This document shows positions 26,408 through 37,725 of a stretch of DNA of 57,066 nucleotides, piece after piece; the first letter of the stretch is position 1, and each line of letters opens with the position of its first letter. The notes beneath the pieces were generated by a model that was not told where the DNA came from, did no database searches, and saw only the letters and a program-made list of their open reading frames with translations. Both the position numbers and the translations under genes were made by a program. Source of the DNA: Alphaproteobacteria bacterium (GTDB lineage: Bacteria; Pseudomonadota; Alphaproteobacteria; Rickettsiales; SXRF01); contig JANYBV010000035.1 in NCBI GenBank assembly GCA_025360605.1, forward strand, positions 1-57,066. Reading direction: 5' to 3'.

Positions 26408-27181
26408 ATGTTTCGTCGCAAGGATGCAGATAACGGTCTGTTTGATACCACAACTGAACAAGGACAAGGAGGGCTTATGTCCGGGGATACAACCACTACT
26501 ACCGCTCAACCATCATCAATGATGGGCAATTCCACTACCGCTACCACTGCGAGTGCAGCTACCGCTGCTCCTGTTGTTGGTGGTGTTGCCGCACAACCAG
26601 TTAACCCAGCTGCTCGTGCTGCTGAAGCTCGTCCAGAAGCCCGTTCGAACCCAGCGCCAAGCGCATCCACGTTCCGTCCCAACACCTCGCCTATGTCATC
26701 CATGGGCGGCGATATGGTTCGCAGCCGTATGCCGGAAACCAAAGTCAACGCCTCGCCTGCTACCGGTGTTGGCATTGACAAAGCAAACAAAACCGGCCGC
26801 CGTGTGCTGACCGTTGGTAACGACATCCTCCTCAAGGGCGAAATCGCAACTTGCGACCGTCTCGTGATCGAAGGCAAAGTAGATGCAACTCTCAACGATG
26901 TTCACACCGTTGAAATTGCTGAAACCGGTTCTTTCAAAGGTTCGGCCAATATAGAGGATGCTGAGATTAGCGGTTTGTTCGAAGGTGACCTCGTAGTTCG
27001 TAACCGCCTCGTGATCTATGCAACTGGCAAAGTTCGCGGAAAAATTTCTTATGGTGAAATCGAAATCGAACGCGGCGGTGAGCTGACGGGCGAAATCAAG
27101 ACCACCAGCCCACAATCTTCAAACACTGGTCCGCGCCCAACACGCGCTGGTATCAAAGAAGAAAAGGTTGTTGCAGCGTAA
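26408..27181 (+). CDS. Bactofilin (polymer-forming cytoskeletal protein)
   Basis: The 257-residue protein has a disordered N-terminal half rich in Thr, Ala and Pro. The bactofilin beta-helix follows, about residues 133-235: LTVGNDILLKGEIATCDRLV, EGKVDATLNDVHTVEIAETG, IEDAEISGLFEGDLVVRNRL and YATGKVRGKISYGEIEIERG. Bactofilins polymerise without nucleotide and place wall-modifying enzymes or envelope structures. The long N-terminal region is larger than in the smallest family members. An AGGGAGAG ribosome site precedes the ATG. Unlike many bactofilin genes it has no M23 peptidase neighbour; the M23 gene of this window is 21 kb away. Confidence 0.93.
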   Translation: MFRRKDADNGLFDTTTEQGQGGLMSGDTTTTTAQPSSMMGNSTTATTASAATAAPVVGGVAAQPVNPAARAAEARPEARSNPAPSASTFRPNTSPMSSMGGDMVRSRMPETKVNASPATGVGIDKANKTGRRVLTVGNDILLKGEIATCDRLVIEGKVDATLNDVHTVEIAETGSFKGSANIEDAEISGLFEGDLVVRNRLVIYATGKVRGKISYGEIEIERGGELTGEIKTTSPQSSNTGPRPTRAGIKEEKVVAA

Positions 27182-27201
27182 GCTCAGCGACTTTGCGACA
27201 C

Positions 27202-27234
27202 AAAAACCCCGACTGGCAGCAGTCGGGGTTTTTT
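27202..27234. terminator. Bidirectional intrinsic terminator between bactofilin and rnhA
   Basis: CCCCGACTG (27207-27215) pairs perfectly with CAGTCGGGG (27220-27228) around the loop GCAG, flanked by A5 on the left and T6 on the right. Because A and T runs flank both sides, it can end transcription of both convergent genes. Confidence 0.93.
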
Positions 27235-27238
27235 ATTG

Positions 27239-27670
27239 CTATTTTCTGATAGCGGCAACCGCCAGCTTGTCGACGCGTTCATTATATTCATGGCCATTAT
27301 GGCCACGCACCCAATGCCAGCGCACCTGATGATGCGAGGCGGCAAGCTCAAGGCGCTGCCATAGATCGCTATTTTTGACCGGCTTTTTATCCGCCGTTTT
27401 CCATCCCCTCGCCTTCCAGCCGGAAATCCACTCGGTGATGCCCTTCTGCACATAGGTGCTATCAGTATAGACATCGATACTACACGGTGATTTAAGCGCT
27501 TCTAATGCAGCAATAGCCGCCATCATTTCCATCCGGTTATTAGTCGTGTCACTGTCCGCGCCGGACATTTCTTTTTCTACCTCACCGTACACCAGTATCG
27601 CCGCCCAACCCCCGGGGCCCGGATTGCCGGAGCATGCACCATCCGTATAAATTTTGACCTGTTTTTTCAT
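27239..27670 (-). CDS. rnhA: Ribonuclease HI
   Basis: The 143-residue enzyme begins [20 protein letters not shown] and carries the four catalytic acids in order: Asp in YTDGACSG, Glu in NNRMEMMAA, Asp in [10 protein letters not shown] and Asp in [11 protein letters not shown]. It also has the basic protrusion [19 protein letters not shown]. It degrades the RNA strand of RNA-DNA hybrids. It follows thrB by 12 bases, the arrangement seen in many Alphaproteobacteria. Confidence 0.97.
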
Positions 27671-27682
27671 GGGATACGGGAA

Positions 27683-28672
27683 CTATGCCAGACCATATTC
27701 GCGTGAATGGCGCACACGCTGATGAAAACGCAATTTGGTGACGTATTCCATCGGATCTTTGGGATTCACAAGCGCACCGTCCACGCGGTGCAGCCAGTCA
27801 TGCGAACGCGTCACCAGAAACCGCATGGCGGCACCGCGCGCCAGTACCGGCATGGCGGCACGTTCCGCTTCCGTGATAGGCCGTAAACGGTGATAGGCGT
27901 TGAGCATCGCCGAGGCACGCTCAGGCATGAACTTATGTGCCGCATCAAAGCACCATGCATTCATGCAAATCATCAGGTCATACATCCAGAAATCATTGCA
28001 GGCAAAATAGAAATCAATGACTCCGGAAAGCTCGGGCTGATCGGTATTCCCATCGACAAAAAAAACGTTATCCGGAAATACGTCAGCGTGAATGACGCCT
28101 TGCGGCAAACCATGTGGCCAGTGTTCCTCAAGATAGGCGAGTTCTTCCACCATATCCTGCTCCAGTCCCAGCGTAATTGTATTGGCATCGCGGCGGAAAC
28201 GCTGGAACAACCCGTTCCAGCCATCCACCGACAGAGCATTACGGCGTGTCATTGGAAATCCTTCTGCTGCCAGATGCATGCGCGCCAGCAACTCACCGGT
28301 GAGTTGCGTGTGACGCGGGGTAATATGAGGGCTGCCACGGCCATGTAAAAAATGAATCAATGCTGCTGGCCTGTCCTTCAGCGTAAAAACAACACGCTCG
28401 TCACGGCTTTTGACCGGACGCGGGCAGGAGATGCCGCGATCAGCCAGCCATTCGGTTAAGCCCAGAAAAAACGGCAATTCCGAGGACAATACACGCTGCT
28501 CATATAACGTCAGGATATAACGGCCAAGTTCACCGTTGATAGAAGTAACGATTAGGTAGTTGGTGTTTTCAACGCCTTCGGTGATGCCTTTGAAAGACAC
28601 CAGCGTGCCAATATCATAATTCTCGAGGAATGATTCAATGTCCTGTGCTGTGAGCTTGGTGTAAACAGCCAC
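27683..28672 (-). CDS. thrB: Homoserine kinase (aminoglycoside-phosphotransferase fold)
   Basis: The 329-residue kinase begins MAVYTKLTAQDIESFLENYD with FKGITEGVENTNYLI. It has the phosphotransferase catalytic loop VIHADVFPDNVFF near residue 196 and the metal-binding GVIDFYFACNDFWMYDL. This is the ThrB type used by Alphaproteobacteria and Pseudomonas, unrelated to the GHMP-type ThrB of E. coli. It makes O-phosphohomoserine for threonine synthesis. The start codon is GTG, one base after the sdhB stop, so it may be transcribed with the sdh operon. Confidence 0.94.
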   Translation of the reverse strand: MAVYTKLTAQDIESFLENYDIGTLVSFKGITEGVENTNYLIVTSINGELGRYILTLYEQRVLSSELPFFLGLTEWLADRGISCPRPVKSRDERVVFTLKDRPAALIHFLHGRGSPHITPRHTQLTGELLARMHLAAEGFPMTRRNALSVDGWNGLFQRFRRDANTITLGLEQDMVEELAYLEEHWPHGLPQGVIHADVFPDNVFFVDGNTDQPELSGVIDFYFACNDFWMYDLMICMNAWCFDAAHKFMPERASAMLNAYHRLRPITEAERAAMPVLARGAAMRFLVTRSHDWLHRVDGALVNPKDPMEYVTKLRFHQRVRHSREYGLA

Positions 28673-28673
28673 C

Positions 28674-29474
28674 TCACACCACCTTTTTGACCATGAGTTT
28701 TTTAATTTCAGCGATGGCTTTGGCGGGGTTCAGGCCTTTAGGGCAGGTCTTGGCGCAGTTCATAATCGTGTGGCAGCGATAGAGCTTGAACGGGTCTTCA
28801 AGATCATCCAGACGCTCGCCGGTGAATTCATCACGGCTATCGATAATCCAGCGGTAGGCCTGCAGCAAAATAGCAGGGCCTAAAAAGCGGTCAGAGTTCC
28901 ACCAGTAGCTTGGGCAGGACGTTGAGCAGCAGGCGCAGAGAATACATTCGTACAGCCCATCGAGCTTCGAGCGGTCTTCCGGCGATTGCAGGCGTTCGCG
29001 GTTGGCGGGTTGCGGCGTGGTGGTTTGCAGCCACGGTTTGATCGACTCATACTGCGCATAAAAATGCGTCATATCCGGCACGAGGTCTTTGATCACCGCC
29101 ATGTGCGGTAGCGGATAGATTTTGACATCGCCCTGCACATCGGCAATCGGCTTGATGCAGGCAAGGGTATTAGTACCGTCAATGTTCATCGCACAGCTAC
29201 CACAGATACCTTCACGGCAGGAACGGCGGAAGGTGAGCGTAGGGTCTATTTCGTCTTTAATTTTGATCAGCGCATCCAGCACCATCGGGCCACACGTGTC
29301 CATATCAATTTCATAGGTATCCATCTTTGGATTGCTTGGTTTTCCTTTGTCATCGACATCCTCTGGGTTCCAGCGGTAGATGGAAAATTTACGCACGCGC
29401 TTTGCGCCAGCCTGAGCCGGATGGGTTTTGCCGGTGCCTACAACGGAGTTGGGAGGAAGTCTGATTTCTGCCAT
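28674..29474 (-). CDS. sdhB: Succinate dehydrogenase iron-sulfur subunit
   Basis: The 266-residue protein holds the plant-type [2Fe-2S] motif [20 protein letters not shown] with a further C, near residue 85-105. It also has the two bacterial-ferredoxin-type cysteine sets [19 protein letters not shown] and [17 protein letters not shown] for the [4Fe-4S] and [3Fe-4S] clusters. It passes electrons from SdhA to ubiquinone at the inner membrane. It is separated from sdhA by two lipoprotein genes, with only 15 bases between it and the second, so the transcript is probably still continuous. Confidence 0.97.
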
Positions 29475-29489
29475 ATTTAGTATGCCTAA

Positions 29490-29993
29490 TTAATCCACTA
29501 TTTTTATGCCCTTGGGGCGTTTAATTTCTGAAGGTAGATCATCTGCCTGTAAAACCCGCTGATATGTACCAGTTGTTTGAACCATAACAGGATCACCCTT
29601 TTTAAAAATTATATCTTCTTTATTCTGATACTGAACAATCGTTTTTGTTTTTTTTGACTCGGTCACTACTGTATATTCGTAACCTTTTTGATCTGCTGCT
29701 GCCTGTTCAGCCATATTACCCGCTACTGCACCAATAAGAACGCCACCTAAAGTAGCAGCCAGCTGACCATTCCCATTACCCACTTGATATCCAGCCACTC
29801 CGCCAGCGGTGCCTCCCGCTAAAGCACCTGCTCCAGTATTCCTACCTGTTATATCAACTTCTTTTGTTTTAACAATAGTGGCATATTCGACAATCGTAGA
29901 TTGGCCAACTTCGTTATAGTTATAATGATTCTGGCCAAGATTACGAGCGCATCCTGTCAGAAGAAAGGGGATTAAAAAAAGCTGTTTTCTCAT
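29490..29993 (-). CDS. Glycine-zipper outer-membrane lipoprotein (SlyB / 17-kDa antigen type)
   Basis: The 167-residue product has a lipoprotein signal peptide MRKQLFLIPFLLTGCARNLG with lipobox LTGC. A glycine-zipper two-helix region follows (GAGALAGGTAGGVAGYQVGN, then LAATLGGVLIGAVAGNMAEQ, about residues 55-95), and then a C-terminal part with EYTVVTESKKTKTIVQYQNK. This is the layout of SlyB-like lipoproteins and the rickettsial 17-kDa antigen, thought to sit in the outer membrane. The start overlaps the stop of the preceding lipoprotein gene by four bases (ATGA). The sequence is visibly more AT-rich than sdhA and sdhB on either side. Confidence 0.88.
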   Translation of the reverse strand: MRKQLFLIPFLLTGCARNLGQNHYNYNEVGQSTIVEYATIVKTKEVDITGRNTGAGALAGGTAGGVAGYQVGNGNGQLAATLGGVLIGAVAGNMAEQAAADQKGYEYTVVTESKKTKTIVQYQNKEDIIFKKGDPVMVQTTGTYQRVLQADDLPSEIKRPKGIKIVD

Positions 29994-30535
29994 TTTAAAT
30001 CCTCTTGTGTTTTATTCGCTAATACATGAATCAAATGCGCGAAATTATTACCCAGAGCCGCACCCATGGCATCCCTAATCACAAATGCCATATTTGCGCC
30101 TAAAATGGGATAATCATAATTTTGAGGTACGACTAACACTTGTTGATAAACAATATTCTCGTTCTGTTTTAATTCATATTTTATTGTAGATCCAGTTTCA
30201 CAGGTTCCGAAGAAACAGCGAGGATCTGCTACGTCAATTAGCGTTGCCTGCAATATATATTTTGCTTTAGAGCCATCCTGAACTAGCATTCCGGCTTTAT
30301 ATAAAGATCCAGATAACGCTAACGTAGCATCTTTATATAACTCGTTGTAATAGTCATGATTTAATAGCTTCGGTGGAAGCTCAGATTTTATGGGCGCTAC
30401 CACCATTTTATTTTTAAGGTAAAAATCTTTTTCTATTTGATTATACACAGCCGATGAAGCCTGCATAGAGCTTACCGGCAAAGGTTGAATACCGCAACCT
30501 GCCAGAGGAAAAAGAAGGAGAAGGTATTTTTTCAT
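29990..30535 (-). CDS. Unknown lipoprotein lying between sdhA and sdhB
   Basis: The product of 181 residues starts MKKYLLLLFPLAGCGIQPLP, with lipobox LAGC. The mature part has KMVVAPIKSELPPKLLNHDY, YKDATLALSGSLYKAGMLVQ, two close cysteines (DPRCFFGTCET) and a C-terminal MAFVIRDAMGAALGNNFAHL. No family was recognised with confidence; the pattern of a conserved strand followed by a small-residue helix recalls periplasmic assembly lipoproteins. The ATG at 30535 comes one base after the sdhA stop; the frame is open further upstream only within sdhA. AT-rich compared with sdhA. Confidence 0.8.
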   Translation of the reverse strand: MKKYLLLLFPLAGCGIQPLPVSSMQASSAVYNQIEKDFYLKNKMVVAPIKSELPPKLLNHDYYNELYKDATLALSGSLYKAGMLVQDGSKAKYILQATLIDVADPRCFFGTCETGSTIKYELKQNENIVYQQVLVVPQNYDYPILGANMAFVIRDAMGAALGNNFAHLIHVLANKTQEDLK

Positions 30536-30536
30536 C

Positions 30537-32327
30537 TCAGTACACGCGCGCTTTCGGCGGAACGGCCTGCACTTCGTTCGACAAAGTGTTGAGATGCACC
30601 GGACGGTAGTCGAAATAGGTTTTGCCCTTGTCATCCAGCCACGCCAGCGTGTGCTTCATCCAGTTGCGGTCATCACGGTCAGGATAGTCCTCACGCGCAT
30701 GCGCGCCACGGCTTTCCTTGCGGTTGAGCGCGCTGTTCATGGTGAGTAACGCCTGTGAACGCAAATTATCCAGCTCGAGCGCTTCGACTAAATCACTATT
30801 CCACACCAGCGAACGGTCGGACACTGAAAGCTGGTCGAAGCTGTGCCAGATGTCTTCGATCGTGTGCGAACCTTCGGAGAGAATTTTTTCATCACGGAAC
30901 ACGGCTGCATGGTTTTGCATGCAGCGCTGCATGGCACGGCGTATTTCCGAGGTGCGTAGACTGCCATTTGCATGGCGGATACGGTCAAACCGCGCGAGGA
31001 TAGCATCAGAATTAACACCGTTCATCGGTTTATGGCGCGTTCCGGGTTTCACTATTTCAGCAGCACGCAGCGCCGCCGCGCGGCCAAATACCACCAGATC
31101 GAGCAATGAATTACTGCCCAAACGGTTTGCACCATGCACGGATACGCACGCTGCCTCGCCAATGGCCATGAGGCCGGAAACGACAGATTCAGGATTGCCT
31201 TTTTTGAGTGTCAGCACTTCACCGTGATAGTTGGTAGGCACGCCGCCCATATTGTAATGTACGGTCGGCAACACCGGAATAGGCTGTTTAGTCACGTCAA
31301 CGGCTGCAAAAATTTTCGCCGTTTCGGAAATACCTGGAAGGCGCTCATGCAAAATCGACGGATCCAGATGATCGAGATGAAGGAAAATATGGTCTTTATC
31401 CGGCCCCACCCCTCTGCCCTCGCGGATTTCAATGGTCATCGCACGCGATACCACGTCACGCGACGCAAGATCTTTGGCATGCGGCGCATAACGTTCCATG
31501 AAACGTTCGCCCTGTGAATTCACGAGATAACCACCCTCGCCGCGCGCACCTTCGGTAATCAGGCAGCCCGCACCGTACACACCCGTGGGGTGAAACTGCA
31601 CGAATTCCATGTCCTGCAGCGGCAGGCCCGCACGTACTGCCATGCCACCACCATCACCCGTACAAGTGTGGGCCGAGGTAGCGGAGAAATAGGCACGTCC
31701 GTACCCACCCGTGGCCAGCACGGTGATGTGGGCGTTGAAGCGGTGCAACGTGCCGTCATCGAGGTTCCACGCCATAACACCACGGCAGGTTCCCTCTTCG
31801 TCCATCATCAGATCGACGGCAAAATATTCGATGAAAAATTGTGCATTATGGCGCAGTGCCTGCGTGTAGAGCGTATGTAAAATAGCATGTCCGGTGCGGT
31901 CAGCGGCCGCGCAGGTGCGCTGGGCGGTGCCTTTGCCGTAATTGGTGGTCATGCCGCCGAAGGGACGCTGATAAATTTTACCATCTTCGGTGCGTGAAAA
32001 CGGCACGCCGTAATGTTCTAGTTCGACCACCGCTTCCATAGCGTTTTTGCACATATATTCAATGGCATCCTGATCGCCCAACCAGTCGCCGCCTTTAATG
32101 GTGTCGTACATGTGCCAGCGCCAGTCATCCTCGCCCATATTGCCGAGCGCTGCTGAGATACCGCCCTGCGCGGCCACCGTGTGCGAACGCGTGGGGAATA
32201 CTTTGGTCACGCAGGCCGTATTCAGGCCCGCAGCAGCCATACCGAACGTAGCACGCAAACCGGCACCGCCGGCCCCCACCACAACGACATCGTGAAAATG
32301 ATCAATAATTTTATAGGATTGGGTCAT
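30537..32327 (-). CDS. sdhA: Succinate dehydrogenase flavoprotein subunit
   Basis: The product of 596 residues has [20 protein letters not shown] near the N-terminus and [20 protein letters not shown], whose histidine carries the covalent FAD in this family. It also has [20 protein letters not shown] at the active site and [20 protein letters not shown]. It oxidises succinate to fumarate in the TCA cycle as part of complex II. I prefer the ATG at 32327 ([20 protein letters not shown]) to the TTG at 32345. It follows sdhD closely and is followed after one base by a lipoprotein gene instead of sdhB. Confidence 0.97.
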
Positions 32328-32348
32328 ATTTTTTTCATGTTCCAAGAG

Positions 32349-32762
32349 CTAAATAGATGCGCCCATGTCAAGGAAATGAAGCTTGAGCACCGCAAGGATG
32401 GACAACGCCGCAAATGCAAAACATACAAAGGTATTCAAAAGTAATAAGCCGTATTTCTTCACCGGACATTTGACGTAATCTTCGACGATGACCTGAATGC
32501 CAAGGCGCGCATGCATGAACATAGCCACCAGCAACATCACCATCACAATCGCATTCACCGGCGACGCAAACCACGTCGCAATCTTCACCACATTAGGTGA
32601 CAGCATCGCCGTCACCAGCGATCCGGTAAACCACAGTGACAAGGGAATCAGCGCCACAGCGGTGACACGCTGCATCCACCAGTGTTGCACCCCGTGATGG
32701 GCAGAGCCAAGGCCTTTGACGCGTTTTAATTTGCTTTGAAGATTAGAGGAATTGGCGCTCAT
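32349..32762 (-). CDS. sdhD: Succinate dehydrogenase hydrophobic membrane anchor subunit
   Basis: The product of 137 residues starts MSANSSNLQSKLKRVKGLGS and has AHHGVQHWWMQRVTAVALIP, then three membrane spans. The conserved haem-ligand region AMFMHARLGIQVIVEDYVK is near residue 85-105. It anchors SdhAB and helps form the quinone site. The ATG at 32762 overlaps the sdhC stop (ATGA), which argues for it over an in-frame start at 32798 that would overlap sdhC by 40 bases. Confidence 0.94.
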   Translation of the reverse strand: MSANSSNLQSKLKRVKGLGSAHHGVQHWWMQRVTAVALIPLSLWFTGSLVTAMLSPNVVKIATWFASPVNAIVMVMLLVAMFMHARLGIQVIVEDYVKCPVKKYGLLLLNTFVCFAFAALSILAVLKLHFLDMGASI

Positions 32763-33172
32763 GACATCGCTCCCGTTGAGGTCATCGCCACAAACCATGT
32801 CAGCAGCGTCATGCCGATAGTAAACGCCACAACCAGCAGGCCTGAGCGGCGCATATCCGGCAAGGCAAAGCCTTTACCCGTATCCCAGAACAGGTGGCGG
32901 ATGCCGTTACCCAGATGATAATAAAAGGCAGAAACCCAGCCAAAAAGGCATATTTGGCCAAGCACAGACGATAAAGCGCCGTGCAGGGTGGTATAAAATG
33001 CCGGAGCGTAGGCCGCGGACCACAACCACACCACAATCAGGGCACTGCCAGCAAACAACGCCATACCCGTCATGCGATGCAGGATTGAAAGCACCATGGA
33101 ATTCTGCCAGCGATAGATAGAAATATGCGGCGATATGGGGCGAGCGTGAATGGTTTTGGTATCAGATGACAT
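32759..33172 (-). CDS. sdhC: Succinate dehydrogenase cytochrome b556 subunit
   Basis: The 137-residue protein has RPISPHISIYRWQNSMVLSI and LHRMTGMALFAGSALIVVWL, the SdhC signature, plus SAFYYHLGNGIRHLFWDTGK with the haem-ligand histidine, and three membrane spans. It is the first gene of the sdh operon. About 105 bases separate it from the quinone oxidoreductase gene upstream on the same strand; that gap holds strong palindromes described separately. Confidence 0.95.
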   Translation of the reverse strand: MSSDTKTIHARPISPHISIYRWQNSMVLSILHRMTGMALFAGSALIVVWLWSAAYAPAFYTTLHGALSSVLGQICLFGWVSAFYYHLGNGIRHLFWDTGKGFALPDMRRSGLLVVAFTIGMTLLTWFVAMTSTGAMS

Positions 33173-33195
33173 AGATTCAATGGTACAAATGATGA

Positions 33196-33228
33196 CGGGA
33201 TACAGTTATCCCGCCTTTATATAAAGGC
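33196..33228. promoter_or_regulatory. Two adjacent palindromes upstream of the sdh operon
   Basis: CGGGATA (33196-33202) pairs with TATCCCG (33207-33213) around CAGT. Directly next to it lies GCCTTTATATAAAGGC (33213-33228), a perfect 16-base palindrome. They lie 24-56 bases before sdhC and after the stop of the quinone oxidoreductase gene. Neither is followed by a T-run on the minus strand, so an operator or transcript-end structure is more likely than a simple intrinsic terminator; the TATATAA core could also be a -10 element. Confidence 0.45.
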
Positions 33229-33277
33229 TTCGGCAAATAATCCATAACAAATTTGCCTCAAGGGCAGACTTCCTTGT

Positions 33278-34288
33278 TTAGTGGGATACGTTAAGCATGA
33301 TTTTGCCTATATGCAGGCTGCTTTCCATGAGCGCATGGGCGCGGGCTACCTCCGATAAATCAAAGGCCTTGTAAATCACCGGAGCGCATCGGCCCGCATC
33401 CAGCACCGGCCAGAGGCGCTGATACAGAGAGCTTGCAATGGCCGCTTTTTGTTCAGTTGTACGCGGGCGCAGGGTCGAGCCGGTAATAACAAGGCGGCGG
33501 GACATCACCTGCACGAGGTTAAACTGCTCAACTTTGGCTCCCAGCATCACCGAAATCTGCACCAGACGGCCTTCCACCGCCAAAGCGTCAAGATTGCGCT
33601 GGAAATAGGGCGCACCGACCATGTCGAGAATAACATTCACTCCCTTACCGTCTGTGAGCTGTTGTAGCCTCAGGGCAAAATCCTCCTGCTTGTAATCAAT
33701 GGCAACACGGGCTCCCGCCTTGATGCACGCCGCTTGTTTATCCGCATTCCCCACCGTGGTATACACCGTATTGCCATATTCATGCGCCAGCTGTATCGCC
33801 GTCAGGCCGATACCGCTGCTGCCGCCATGCACCAGCAGGGATTCACCGCGTATCAGACGGTCATGCTGGAACAGATTCGCCCACACGGTAAAATAATTTT
33901 CCGGCAACGCCGCTGCCGACACCGCGTCATAACCCTTCGGCCATGGCAGGCATTGGGATGCTGGTGCAACAGCATATTGCGCATAACCACCGCCATTGGT
34001 CAGTGCGCACACACGCTCACCCAACTTCCATGTTGTTACCTGCGTTCCAACCGCAACCACCTCGCCTGCAACCTCCAGCCCCAAGACCGGACTGGCAGAC
34101 GGCGGCGGCGGATAGGCGCCTTTGCGTTGCAACACATCCGGACGGTTGACACCGGCTGCCATGACACGGATTAACACCTCATCCACCTTAGCTTGCGGCA
34201 CCGCAACCGTGGCCAGACGCATCACATCCGCCTCACCTGCCTGCGGCACATCCACGCAATACATTGTATCAGGAATTGCCAACGCCAT
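33278..34288 (-). CDS. NAD(P)H:quinone oxidoreductase, zinc-independent MDR family
   Basis: The 336-residue enzyme has VMAAGVNRPDVLQRKGAYPP near residue 45 (quinone oxidoreductase signature), GLEVAGEVVAVG, and the NADPH loop LVHGGSSGIGLTAIQLAHEY near 150. It lacks the structural zinc cysteines of alcohol dehydrogenases. The sequence is closest in feel to the PIG3/QorB-type group. It reduces quinones or reactive carbonyls; the precise substrate is unknown. Its start codon shares one base with the stop of the DUF983 gene, so the two are coupled. Confidence 0.9.
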   Translation of the reverse strand: MALAIPDTMYCVDVPQAGEADVMRLATVAVPQAKVDEVLIRVMAAGVNRPDVLQRKGAYPPPPSASPVLGLEVAGEVVAVGTQVTTWKLGERVCALTNGGGYAQYAVAPASQCLPWPKGYDAVSAAALPENYFTVWANLFQHDRLIRGESLLVHGGSSGIGLTAIQLAHEYGNTVYTTVGNADKQAACIKAGARVAIDYKQEDFALRLQQLTDGKGVNVILDMVGAPYFQRNLDALAVEGRLVQISVMLGAKVEQFNLVQVMSRRLVITGSTLRPRTTEQKAAIASSLYQRLWPVLDAGRCAPVIYKAFDLSEVARAHALMESSLHIGKIMLNVSH

Positions 34289-34686: not shown

Positions 34687-34908
34687 ATACTGGTTTTAAT
34701 TGATACGTGCCGATTATGAATCTTCGTCCGTCGTTCGGCAAGCTGGAAGAAGAGCACCCTCAAAACAATATAATCGATTGAATTATATTGTTAGTTTTAT
34801 GACAATGGCTTAAAGAATGCCCCATCCATGTCATGGACTATTCACACGCTTGCTAACGGATTCATAGTAAAATGGTTGTATTATAATAGGCAACCGTTGA
34901 GGCATCAC

Positions 34909-37725
34909 ATGGAATTTCTGGCCGTTGTACTTGGAATGGGGGGCATCGCTACCGGTGCCTATATGATTATTCCTGCCTTCAAGCAGTGGATCGATAAACT
35001 GTTCAACCTTAATCCCCCGCCCAAACCAGACCCTACTAAGGATCAACAGCCTAAGGAAATGGCTGAAAAACTTCGCAAAGCCGAAGAAGAAAGAGCCGCA
35101 GCGCAACAGCGTGCGGAGACGGCTGAAAAACGCTCGGCGGCCCTTGATAAAGAAATGGGTGATGTCAAAGCACAGGCAGGCGCACTCGCAGGCCAGAAAC
35201 AAGCCGCCGAAGAGAAATTAAAAGATTCACAACAAGCCGCGGGGGCGGCCACCGCACGTGCAGAGACGGCCGAAAAACAAGTGGCAGGGCTCACCCAAAC
35301 CGTTTCCGGCCTGCAAGCCAGCGTGCAGCAAACCGCCGCCACAAACGCCAGCTTAACGTCTGATCTGGCAACGCTTAAAGCTGCCAATGTCGATCTGAAT
35401 GCACAATTGAAAGCAGCTATAGACACCGTAGCAGAACAGAAAGGCAAACTGGCCGCTGGCGATGCACAAATGGCCGCCCTTGCCACACGCGCAAAAGAGC
35501 TTGGCGATAAAGAAGATGCCGCGAATAAAGAAAAAGACCGCCTTGAAGAAGAAAGAGGAAGATTAGCCGGAAAAAATAAAGAACTCGCCGATTCCCTGCG
35601 CGACGAAACCAGCAAAAAGACCGCTGCCGAAAAATCCGCTGGCGAAGCACAGCTCGCATTGGAAGCACTCAAAGCGAGTGGTACCGCTACCGATCAACAG
35701 TTAGCCGATGCTAAACGCAATGTCGAACAAACCACTCAGAACTTGGCAACGGCCACCCAGAAAATCGAAAACCTGAACGCTGCCGCACAGGAGACCGCCA
35801 ATACCCTGAAAGACCTGAAACAACAGCTGGGCGTAGCGGTTGCGGCAGCCAAAACTGCAAAAGACGAAAAAGAATCGCTTGGAAAAGACATTGAAGGCCT
35901 GAAAGCACAGGTGGCTACGCTGGCTCAAAGCGTTACGAGTGCCGAAAAAAGCAGGGATGACGCAGTGGCAGCTGCCAAAGCCCAGCAAGAAAGCACACAG
36001 GCCACTGAAAAAGCGATTAAGGATAAGCTGGACGCAGCCAACAAGGAATTGGGAACGCTTAAAACACAGATGACAGAGTTAGCGCAGTCCAATGCCAGCA
36101 AAGATAAAGAAATTCAGACATTAAATGGTGCGCTCGCTACTGCCAGTGCCAAGGCCGACACAGCGGCAAAGGATGCCGCACAAAAAGAGGCTACCGCCAA
36201 AGAACTATCCGGACAATTGGATAAAGCAAAGGAAGCGGAACGCCGTGACAAAGCGGCTTTTGATCAGGCAGTGAGGGAAAAATCGGACAAACAATCCGAA
36301 CTGGAAACCAAGCTGGCAGCCTCAATCGCCGCCGCAAGTGCCCTTGCTGCCAAACTGGGACAAGCCAGTGATGAAGCCAAACAACAGCAAAATGCCGCTA
36401 AAGAAGCCAAACAAACTGCCGAAAATCTGCAATCGCAACTGGATGCACTGAAATCTGCCAAGGCAGATGGAGATCAAAAAGCACAAACAGCGCAGAACGA
36501 GCTGCAACAGGAATTGACCAAAAAGGAAGCGGCTAGCCGTGAGTTGACCAGCCAGATGACCGCTATGAAAGATACTACTACTAAAGACAAAGCCGCCGCC
36601 AAAGCACTGGAAGAAGACTTACGCGGACAGCTGGGCGAAGCTACCCAGAAACTCGACGGGCTGCAAAAACAGCTTCAGACCGCCGCCGATGCCAAAGCCA
36701 CCGCCGACAGCCAACTGGATGCCGCACGTAAAGATGTCACTCAAAAAGCCAAGGAACGCGATGCCGAGAAAGAGAAAGTCAACGCATTGAAGCGTGAAAT
36801 CGCAAGACTGAATGAGGCGTTGCGAAGCCAGTCCAACAAGGTGGGCTGGGATGTAAAGGCATCAGGGTATGAAGGCATGCATGTCCCTATTGGCGGTACC
36901 CAGAAAATGCAGATCGTCATGAGCCCGCCGCAAGACAATATACCGGATTATTCCGACCCCCAAAAGATGATCTACCAGAACAAAGGCCGCTCCGGCGCCG
37001 TCACGTTTGTATTACCGCCAGATATTCAGTGGAAGGATATCGAAATTGTCGACACCAAACAATCCATTGCAATTGATGACTGGCTGGACAGAGAAGGTAA
37101 GCCGCGCGCAGCTAACAATAAAAAAATTGTGCCGTGGTATGCTATTAAAATTAAAGGTGAAATTAAAGCGGCCTTTCCGCCGACGCTGGGTATCCGGATT
37201 GTCGGGCATGGTTTCGACACCAAGCAACCTTTAGGTGATAACACGCCGCTGACGGACGGTGAACCTATCCGTGATATGATTGTGCAAGCCCCGCTCAGGC
37301 TTAGAATGTCTGGCAGCACCTATTCCGACGATGATAACGACATCGATATTCAGGGACTGAGAGAAGATACGTATTCCAATCAAGGAGTCGTACCGGACGA
37401 TAAAACTATTGAAGCCATGAAAAGCCGCTCCAGCGAGCTTCCGCTGCTAATGCTGCAAAAACGTGTGGAAATCATGAAGGATATTGAAACCAGATACAAA
37501 AAAGTACGTGAACCGGAACGAGGCTATTTACCACCTGAACCTGCGCCATCCGCCAAAGACAATAGCCCTGAAACCACTCCGCAAACGATGAATATGCAGC
37601 AACTTATGGAGTTTGGCCGGATGATGAATGCAAGTATGCCATTTGGAAGCAGTTTCGGCAGCCTGCCCACTATCATCGCGCCGCTGTTACAGCAAAAGCC
37701 GCAGGAGCCTGTGCCCACCAAGTAA
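34909..37725 (+). CDS. Long coiled-coil, membrane-anchored protein of unknown function
   Basis: The 938-residue product begins MEFLAVVLGMGGIATGAYMI, one N-terminal membrane anchor. From about residue 40 to 640 it is almost unbroken coiled coil rich in Ala, Lys, Glu and Gln (KLRKAEEERAAAQQRAETAE, EKDRLEEERGRLAGKNKELA). A globular part follows, about 645-800 (VGWDVKASGYEGMHVPIGGT; GAVTFVLPPDIQWKDIEIVD), then a short helical and Pro-rich tail. It has no ATPase motifs, so it is not an SMC protein. The ATG at 34909 has GAGG six bases upstream and starts at the anchor; an in-frame ATG at 34828 lacks this. Role unknown; a scaffold or filament is an inference. Confidence 0.8.
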   Translation: MEFLAVVLGMGGIATGAYMIIPAFKQWIDKLFNLNPPPKPDPTKDQQPKEMAEKLRKAEEERAAAQQRAETAEKRSAALDKEMGDVKAQAGALAGQKQAAEEKLKDSQQAAGAATARAETAEKQVAGLTQTVSGLQASVQQTAATNASLTSDLATLKAANVDLNAQLKAAIDTVAEQKGKLAAGDAQMAALATRAKELGDKEDAANKEKDRLEEERGRLAGKNKELADSLRDETSKKTAAEKSAGEAQLALEALKASGTATDQQLADAKRNVEQTTQNLATATQKIENLNAAAQETANTLKDLKQQLGVAVAAAKTAKDEKESLGKDIEGLKAQVATLAQSVTSAEKSRDDAVAAAKAQQESTQATEKAIKDKLDAANKELGTLKTQMTELAQSNASKDKEIQTLNGALATASAKADTAAKDAAQKEATAKELSGQLDKAKEAERRDKAAFDQAVREKSDKQSELETKLAASIAAASALAAKLGQASDEAKQQQNAAKEAKQTAENLQSQLDALKSAKADGDQKAQTAQNELQQELTKKEAASRELTSQMTAMKDTTTKDKAAAKALEEDLRGQLGEATQKLDGLQKQLQTAADAKATADSQLDAARKDVTQKAKERDAEKEKVNALKREIARLNEALRSQSNKVGWDVKASGYEGMHVPIGGTQKMQIVMSPPQDNIPDYSDPQKMIYQNKGRSGAVTFVLPPDIQWKDIEIVDTKQSIAIDDWLDREGKPRAANNKKIVPWYAIKIKGEIKAAFPPTLGIRIVGHGFDTKQPLGDNTPLTDGEPIRDMIVQAPLRLRMSGSTYSDDDNDIDIQGLREDTYSNQGVVPDDKTIEAMKSRSSELPLLMLQKRVEIMKDIETRYKKVREPERGYLPPEPAPSAKDNSPETTPQTMNMQQLMEFGRMMNASMPFGSSFGSLPTIIAPLLQQKPQEPVPTK

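Follow-up and report, generated by a model that had tools for sequence, protein, structure and literature searches.

Why should two small lipoprotein genes stand inside the operon for succinate dehydrogenase (complex II)? We met this arrangement in the window, by which we mean the whole analysed stretch of 57,066 nucleotides from an alphaproteobacterial genome (G000). The first-pass annotation had described intact sdhC, sdhD, sdhA and sdhB on one strand, with sdhA and sdhB split by two lipoprotein genes, and this proved correct to the base. With the inserted genes called LP2 and GZ, the minus strand reads sdhC-sdhD-sdhA-LP2-GZ-sdhB-thrB-rnhA:

32759..33172, minus strand: sdhC, cytochrome b556 subunit (TIGR02970, 120 bits; cut-off 52.3)
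32349..32798, minus strand: sdhD, membrane anchor subunit, overlapping sdhC (TIGR02968, 85.9 bits; cut-off 41.8)
30537..32345, minus strand: sdhA, flavoprotein (TIGR01816, 984.7 bits; cut-off 727)
29990..30535, minus strand: LP2, first inserted gene, a 181-aa lipoprotein of unnamed family (no Pfam or NCBIfam match)
29490..29993, minus strand: GZ, second inserted gene, a 167-aa SlyB-family glycine-zipper lipoprotein (PF05433, 30.7 bits; cut-off 24.2)
28674..29474, minus strand: sdhB, iron-sulfur subunit (TIGR00384, 278.9 bits; cut-off 88)
27683..28672, minus strand: thrB, homoserine kinase, GTG start (TIGR00938, 369.6 bits; cut-off 255.9)
27239..27670, minus strand: rnhA, ribonuclease HI (NF001236, 239.7 bits; cut-off 160)

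Each of the four sdh products scores above the cut-offs of one NCBIfam and one Pfam family. The true start of sdhD may lie further inside the listed reading frame, and that of sdhA is more likely the ATG at 32327, six codons downstream of the TTG that was listed, as alignments to most relatives begin only at about residue 7.

The inserted genes and their fit in the operon

The coordinates agree exactly with the spacing first reported. One base separates the sdhA stop (30537) from the LP2 ATG (30535), the end of LP2 (29990) and the start of GZ (29993) overlap by four bases (ATGA), and 15 bases lie between the end of GZ (29490) and the start of sdhB (29474). The close packing extends beyond sdhB, with thrB following after 1 base and rnhA after 12 bases. 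Because the fit is so close, LP2 and GZ are presumably transcribed with sdh and partly coupled to it in translation, at TGAGATG and at ATGA; they would then need no promoter of their own and be carried along as complex II is steadily expressed. A promoter-like site on the operon strand (30072-30044) and a terminator-like site within GZ (29757-29741) belong to classes found at chance level (7 found vs 7.6 +/- 3.0, and 9 found vs 6.3 +/- 2.7, respectively), and there are no Rfam matches in 27000-34000. The insert consists of two genes only, and we found no transposase, integrase, target-site duplication or matching terminal repeats at it, which led us to reject a self-mobile element. Shortly upstream of the sdh region lies a gene for a protein of 965 aa whose very long middle part resembles a coiled coil (34828-37725, plus strand). 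The window's genome also encodes a second SdhA-like flavoprotein (C16:18605-20413, 56% identical), and many relatives have similar second copies.

Each of the two inserted proteins starts with a signal peptide and a lipobox (PLAGC and LLTGC, read by eye), as the first-pass annotation had claimed. It had also placed one of them in the SlyB/17-kDa glycine-zipper type, which is borne out by two comparisons: GZ exceeds the Pfam cut-off of Rick_17kDa_Anti (PF05433), and positions 2-147 of the 169 in a GZ-family profile (6 homologues) match E. coli-type SlyB (PDB 7ojf) at E 7e-19. The likeness spans most of the chain (146 profile positions). SlyB is an outer-membrane lipoprotein (PDB 7ojf/7ojg), reportedly the subject of work on nanodomains. 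GZ resembles it in its lipobox, glycine zipper and SlyB-like C-terminal part, but has a longer C-terminal tail, the LP2 gene in front and a location in the sdh operon. GZ probably acts like SlyB at the outer membrane with LP2 as its partner, and no direct role in complex II would be required.

The other lipoprotein had been called one of unknown family, and LP2 indeed matched nothing in Pfam or NCBIfam. A kinship with YajG was rejected: LP2 and five homologues lack a PF03923 match, and the LP2 profile matched an Azospirillum YajG-family protein with a probability of 2.5%. A single-sequence structure model of LP2 reached a mean pLDDT of 35.7 and was set aside. We also rejected the idea that LP2 and GZ are a split TraT, as GZ scores 16.3 bits against PF05818 (cut-off 31) and LP2 has no TraT match; the glycine-zipper stretch alone is what GZ shares with this surface-exclusion lipoprotein. 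A literature search on glycine-zipper lipoproteins and superinfection exclusion found nothing.

Cargo at the sdhA-sdhB junction across the order

To see how the junction looks in relatives, we surveyed 90 genomes of the order (probably the wide-sense Rickettsiales of GTDB, mostly uncultured families with larger genomes). SdhA was found in 85 and SdhB in 80, and sdhA and sdhB were contiguous in 52 of these 80. The other 28 have the two genes far apart or on different contigs, some surely through draft fragmentation, and were left out of the counts. A gap of at least 400 bp (range 0.5-1.9 kb) separates sdhA from sdhB in 22 of the 52 contiguous genomes, while 30 have no insert of 400 bp, one of these having 236 bp. 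That the window's arrangement is an assembly artefact or a chimeric contig is highly improbable: although its genome is a 2.68-Mb draft in 57 contigs, the genes are all intact and coupled in their spacing, and 21 other genomes also have this junction filled. The 22 filled slots contain:

M48 metalloprotease: G004, G009, G019, G027, G035 (twice), G038, G040, G042, G056, G070, G081, G089
Response-regulator proteins, alone or together with a helical protein: G005, G007, G011, G014
Two related helical proteins: G001
Nucleotidyltransferase and a weakly HepT-like partner (16.6 bits against a cut-off of 23.5): G008
DUF4160 and DUF2442: G065
Methyltransferase: G022
Three reading frames (unscanned): G053
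LP2 and GZ: the window's genome (G000)

M48 thus occupies 12 of the 22, and ten hold other contents. Gene pairs in the slot are called toxin-antitoxin-like by the presumed nature of their families. Recognisable cargo is co-oriented with sdh in 21/22 slots, judged by eye, the exception being an opposing reading frame in G053. In a further genome outside the 52 (G012), a response regulator precedes sdhB on a contig that starts inside sdhA. The helical proteins of about 190 aa (L115, L066, L065) belong to no Pfam family at cut-off, and follow response regulators or stand in tandem in the slot. The sisters G004 and G009 share the M48 gene, and their first slot genes (L068:3089-3535 and L072) align poorly, with dN about 1.1.

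Only the window's genome has LP2 and GZ in the slot; the other 51 contiguous genomes have other contents or none. In a moderately supported tree of SdhA and SdhB (68 rows; 26/65 branches well supported; outgroup split across the tree), G000 and its sister G001 (support 99) differ in cargo, and their nearest congener, G002, lacks an insert (4 bp). This tree requires at least 22 changes of slot state, at least 11 between filled and empty and at least 9 in M48 presence. The first-pass annotation had suggested a later insertion of an envelope cassette, adding that the same insert in most relatives at normal composition would make it an old lineage trait. The comparison of sdhA-sdhB spacing divides this proposal: the AT-rich LP2-GZ pair occupies this place in no other genome examined and is likely late, but the junction itself is old and much used, and what recurs in relatives is a filled slot (22/52) with mostly other genes in it.

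The neighbouring junctions behave differently. In the fetched stretches, with the window's own genome left out and sdhB sought within 6 kb, gaps of at least 400 bp occurred in 1/47 genomes between sdhC and sdhD, 0/48 between sdhD and sdhA and 19/38 between sdhA and sdhB (Fisher p 1e-7 and 6e-9 for the last against the first and second, kinship ignored). The sucC-sucD junction has such a gap in 3/28 contiguous genomes (G022, G033, G036); over the same 37 genomes, this compares with 13/22 at sdhA-sdhB (p 0.0005, kinship ignored). These three gaps measure 0.46-0.85 kb (G022:C2:47277-48070, G036:C12:4981-5834, G033:C50:4202-4659).

We also examined the best 80 SdhA loci of 595 in named proteobacteria. 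Here, sdhB lay downstream in 78, or 77 once L126 (identical to G089 at 99.8%) was excluded, and L125, whose SdhA is 89% identical to that of G065, may belong to the order, as may L164, L146 and L155. The sdhA-sdhB gap reached 400 bp in 3/77 (L160, L192, L203) and the other two junctions did so in 0/78. In the Enterovirga/Prosthecomicrobium pair among these, the intervening genes look like toxin-antitoxin pairs, with DUF433 and DUF5615 proteins in L160, and a PIN domain and a small unassigned protein in L203.

Could such inserts simply be accidents, surviving and drifting at the sole junction where genes do not overlap, with no benefit from the place? The median spacing is -41 between sdhC and sdhD and -7 between sdhD and sdhA, so that an insertion there breaks a gene, and sdhA-sdhB has a short spacer. 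However, the 77 named loci have the same overlaps, and no more than three of them carry inserts; the sucC-sucD spacer (23 bp in the window's genome) is typically 20-60 bp, yet is filled in only three genomes; and the cargo nearly always reads with sdh. We therefore regard a neutral accident as quite unlikely.

Genes inserted in this operon have a precedent. A 2012 study of Roseobacter (PMC3305630) describes genes that lie within its sdhCDAB and sucCD operons without being conserved there, and states that such genes in sdhCDAB are absent from other bacteria. One of them, SPO_PG016 of Ruegeria pomeroyi, was cotranscribed with its neighbours by RT-PCR, and the study left open whether the inserted genes aid the cycle or are opportunists profiting from high expression. 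Among the papers listed by our literature searches on this operon, on gene insertion and on M48 together with sdh, this study was the only one seen to describe inserts in sdhCDAB. LP2 and GZ resemble the Roseobacter genes in lying within sdhCDAB, on the same strand, and in being unconserved at that place among relatives. In both groups, extra genes that vary between relatives sit within an operon of the TCA cycle. The differences are that this is another order, that sucC-sucD is rarely used here, and that most of the inserted genes in Roseobacter are of unknown nature, whereas many occupants here are of known families, with M48 recurring. Inserts in sdhCDAB, known from Roseobacter, are now extended to another order.

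Origin of the LP2-GZ pair

The insert had been described as visibly richer in AT than its flanks, and the GC check proposed with that claim confirms it: GC is 0.37 in LP2 and 0.41 in GZ, against 0.51-0.56 in the four sdh genes. At third codon positions, the values fall to 0.31 and 0.268. Among 54 non-overlapping window reading frames of at least 100 aa (mean GC3 0.546, sd 0.079), LP2 and GZ are the two lowest, LP2 being scored there from a longer start (0.353). In five other genomes, the GC of the pair runs from about 2 points below to 6 above that of its own stretch. LP2-GZ probably entered an old slot only recently.

LP2 followed by GZ occurs in 7/90 relatives (G000, G002, G006, G011, G035, G060, G089), a count biased towards pairing in that LP2 in G002 and G035 was noticed by its adjacency to GZ, the G002 copy being short. 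Over 240 genomes sampled from the class, LP2 was present in 14, and GZ lay within 1.5 kb in 4 of these 14 (G000, G006, G222, G194). The two genes often go together in this branch, but not in general.

Did the pair come from outside, or was it already elsewhere in the genus and moved into the slot without any transfer? G002 has a GZ and the short LP2 after pnp, and the G000 genome contains a single LP2 and a single full GZ. A GZ tree with G000 and G002 as sisters was not rejected (p-AU 0.067), so an old relocation within the genus followed by drift is possible. However, G000 GZ is closer to those of G060 (66% identity), G011 (58%), G089 and G035 (56% each) than to that of its congener G002 (49%), and the pair has a strong AT bias relative to its host. 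A clade of the family members G000, G011 and G002 was rejected (p-AU 0.002). We consider relocation doubtful, though the least improbable of the alternatives, and a recent transfer from an AT-richer source is likely the better reading.

Relatives of GZ (55%) are found on two Azospirillum plasmids. A search of a phage collection with GZ and the G089 LP2 homologue gave no match, and GZ-like genes without LP2 are present on two IMG/VR contigs (52% and 49%; L247:4001-4510 and L248:3998-4492). Phage carriage of GZ is possible on these similarities. On one of the two viral contigs, a terminase gene lies 2 kb on from the GZ relative.

M48 and the role of the slot

The usual occupant is a lipobox M48 metalloprotease (PF01435; 72.0 bits for the G004 copy, cut-off 20.3), found in 25/90 genomes of the order; a search at E 1e-10 gave no hit in the genome of the window or in its genus. 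Besides the 12 in the slot, one M48 gene is next to sdhA where a contig ends (G055), three lie 5' of sdhB with sdhA elsewhere (G006, G010, G013), one follows sdhA after 0.6 kb (G078), and eight were seen beside neither sdhA nor sdhB. M48 trees agree with families where resolved (5/19 inner branches well supported), and M48, the commonest occupant, was probably an early one. In three genomes of one genus (L214 and L215, both on G006 C1; L216; L217), sdhCDA is apart from M48-sdhB-thrB-rnhA and M48 has remained with sdhB; in G006, the 30 kb between sdhA and this cluster contain ordinary-looking genes, judged by eye.

The first-pass annotation had raised a lineage-specific link between complex II expression and envelope lipoproteins. 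A specific link of this kind is weakened by the presence of response regulators, toxin-antitoxin-like pairs and methyltransferases among the occupants; it may nonetheless exist, since 12/22 slots hold an M48 that usually resembles a lipoprotein. M48 or LP2-GZ might thus be co-expressed with complex II to adjust the envelope to the respiratory state. The retention of HExxH in 22/22 M48 copies and of a simple lipobox pattern in 17/22 speaks for this, as does purifying selection between G004 and G009 (dN/dS 0.07, with dS about 1.25 and thus near saturation), and 16 of the 25 M48 genomes have the gene in the slot, beside sdhA or 5' of sdhB. Yet ten of the 22 slots hold other things, 30/52 genomes have no 400-bp insert and M48 is away from sdh in eight genomes as far as seen. 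We judge such functional coupling unlikely.

We find it somewhat more probable than all other readings together that the sdhA-sdhB junction serves as a cargo slot in a core operon, permissive and used over and over, with LP2-GZ as a recent, presumably cotranscribed hitch-hiker from an AT-richer source. The slot would have been emptied, filled and refilled many times in the order, and the two-gene cassette would have arrived recently in the window's species from its donor. The variety of cargo favours profit from expression. M48 in 12/22 filled slots is more uniform than expected of a blind landing site, and its frequency leaves a role in the cycle possible.

Operons of core metabolism are assumed to be fixed, yet in this respiratory operon a single, precisely defined junction repeatedly takes unrelated cargo and its neighbours do not. 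Perhaps, though this is rather unlikely, the junction is a selected cargo bay, in which cassettes for the envelope or for self-persistence are kept since expression locked to complex II is advantageous. If so, the status of complex II would be tied to envelope upkeep, through M48, SlyB pairs and toxin-antitoxin-like modules. With many lineages carrying recognisable cargo at one junction, the question of whether such genes are helpers or opportunists becomes testable.
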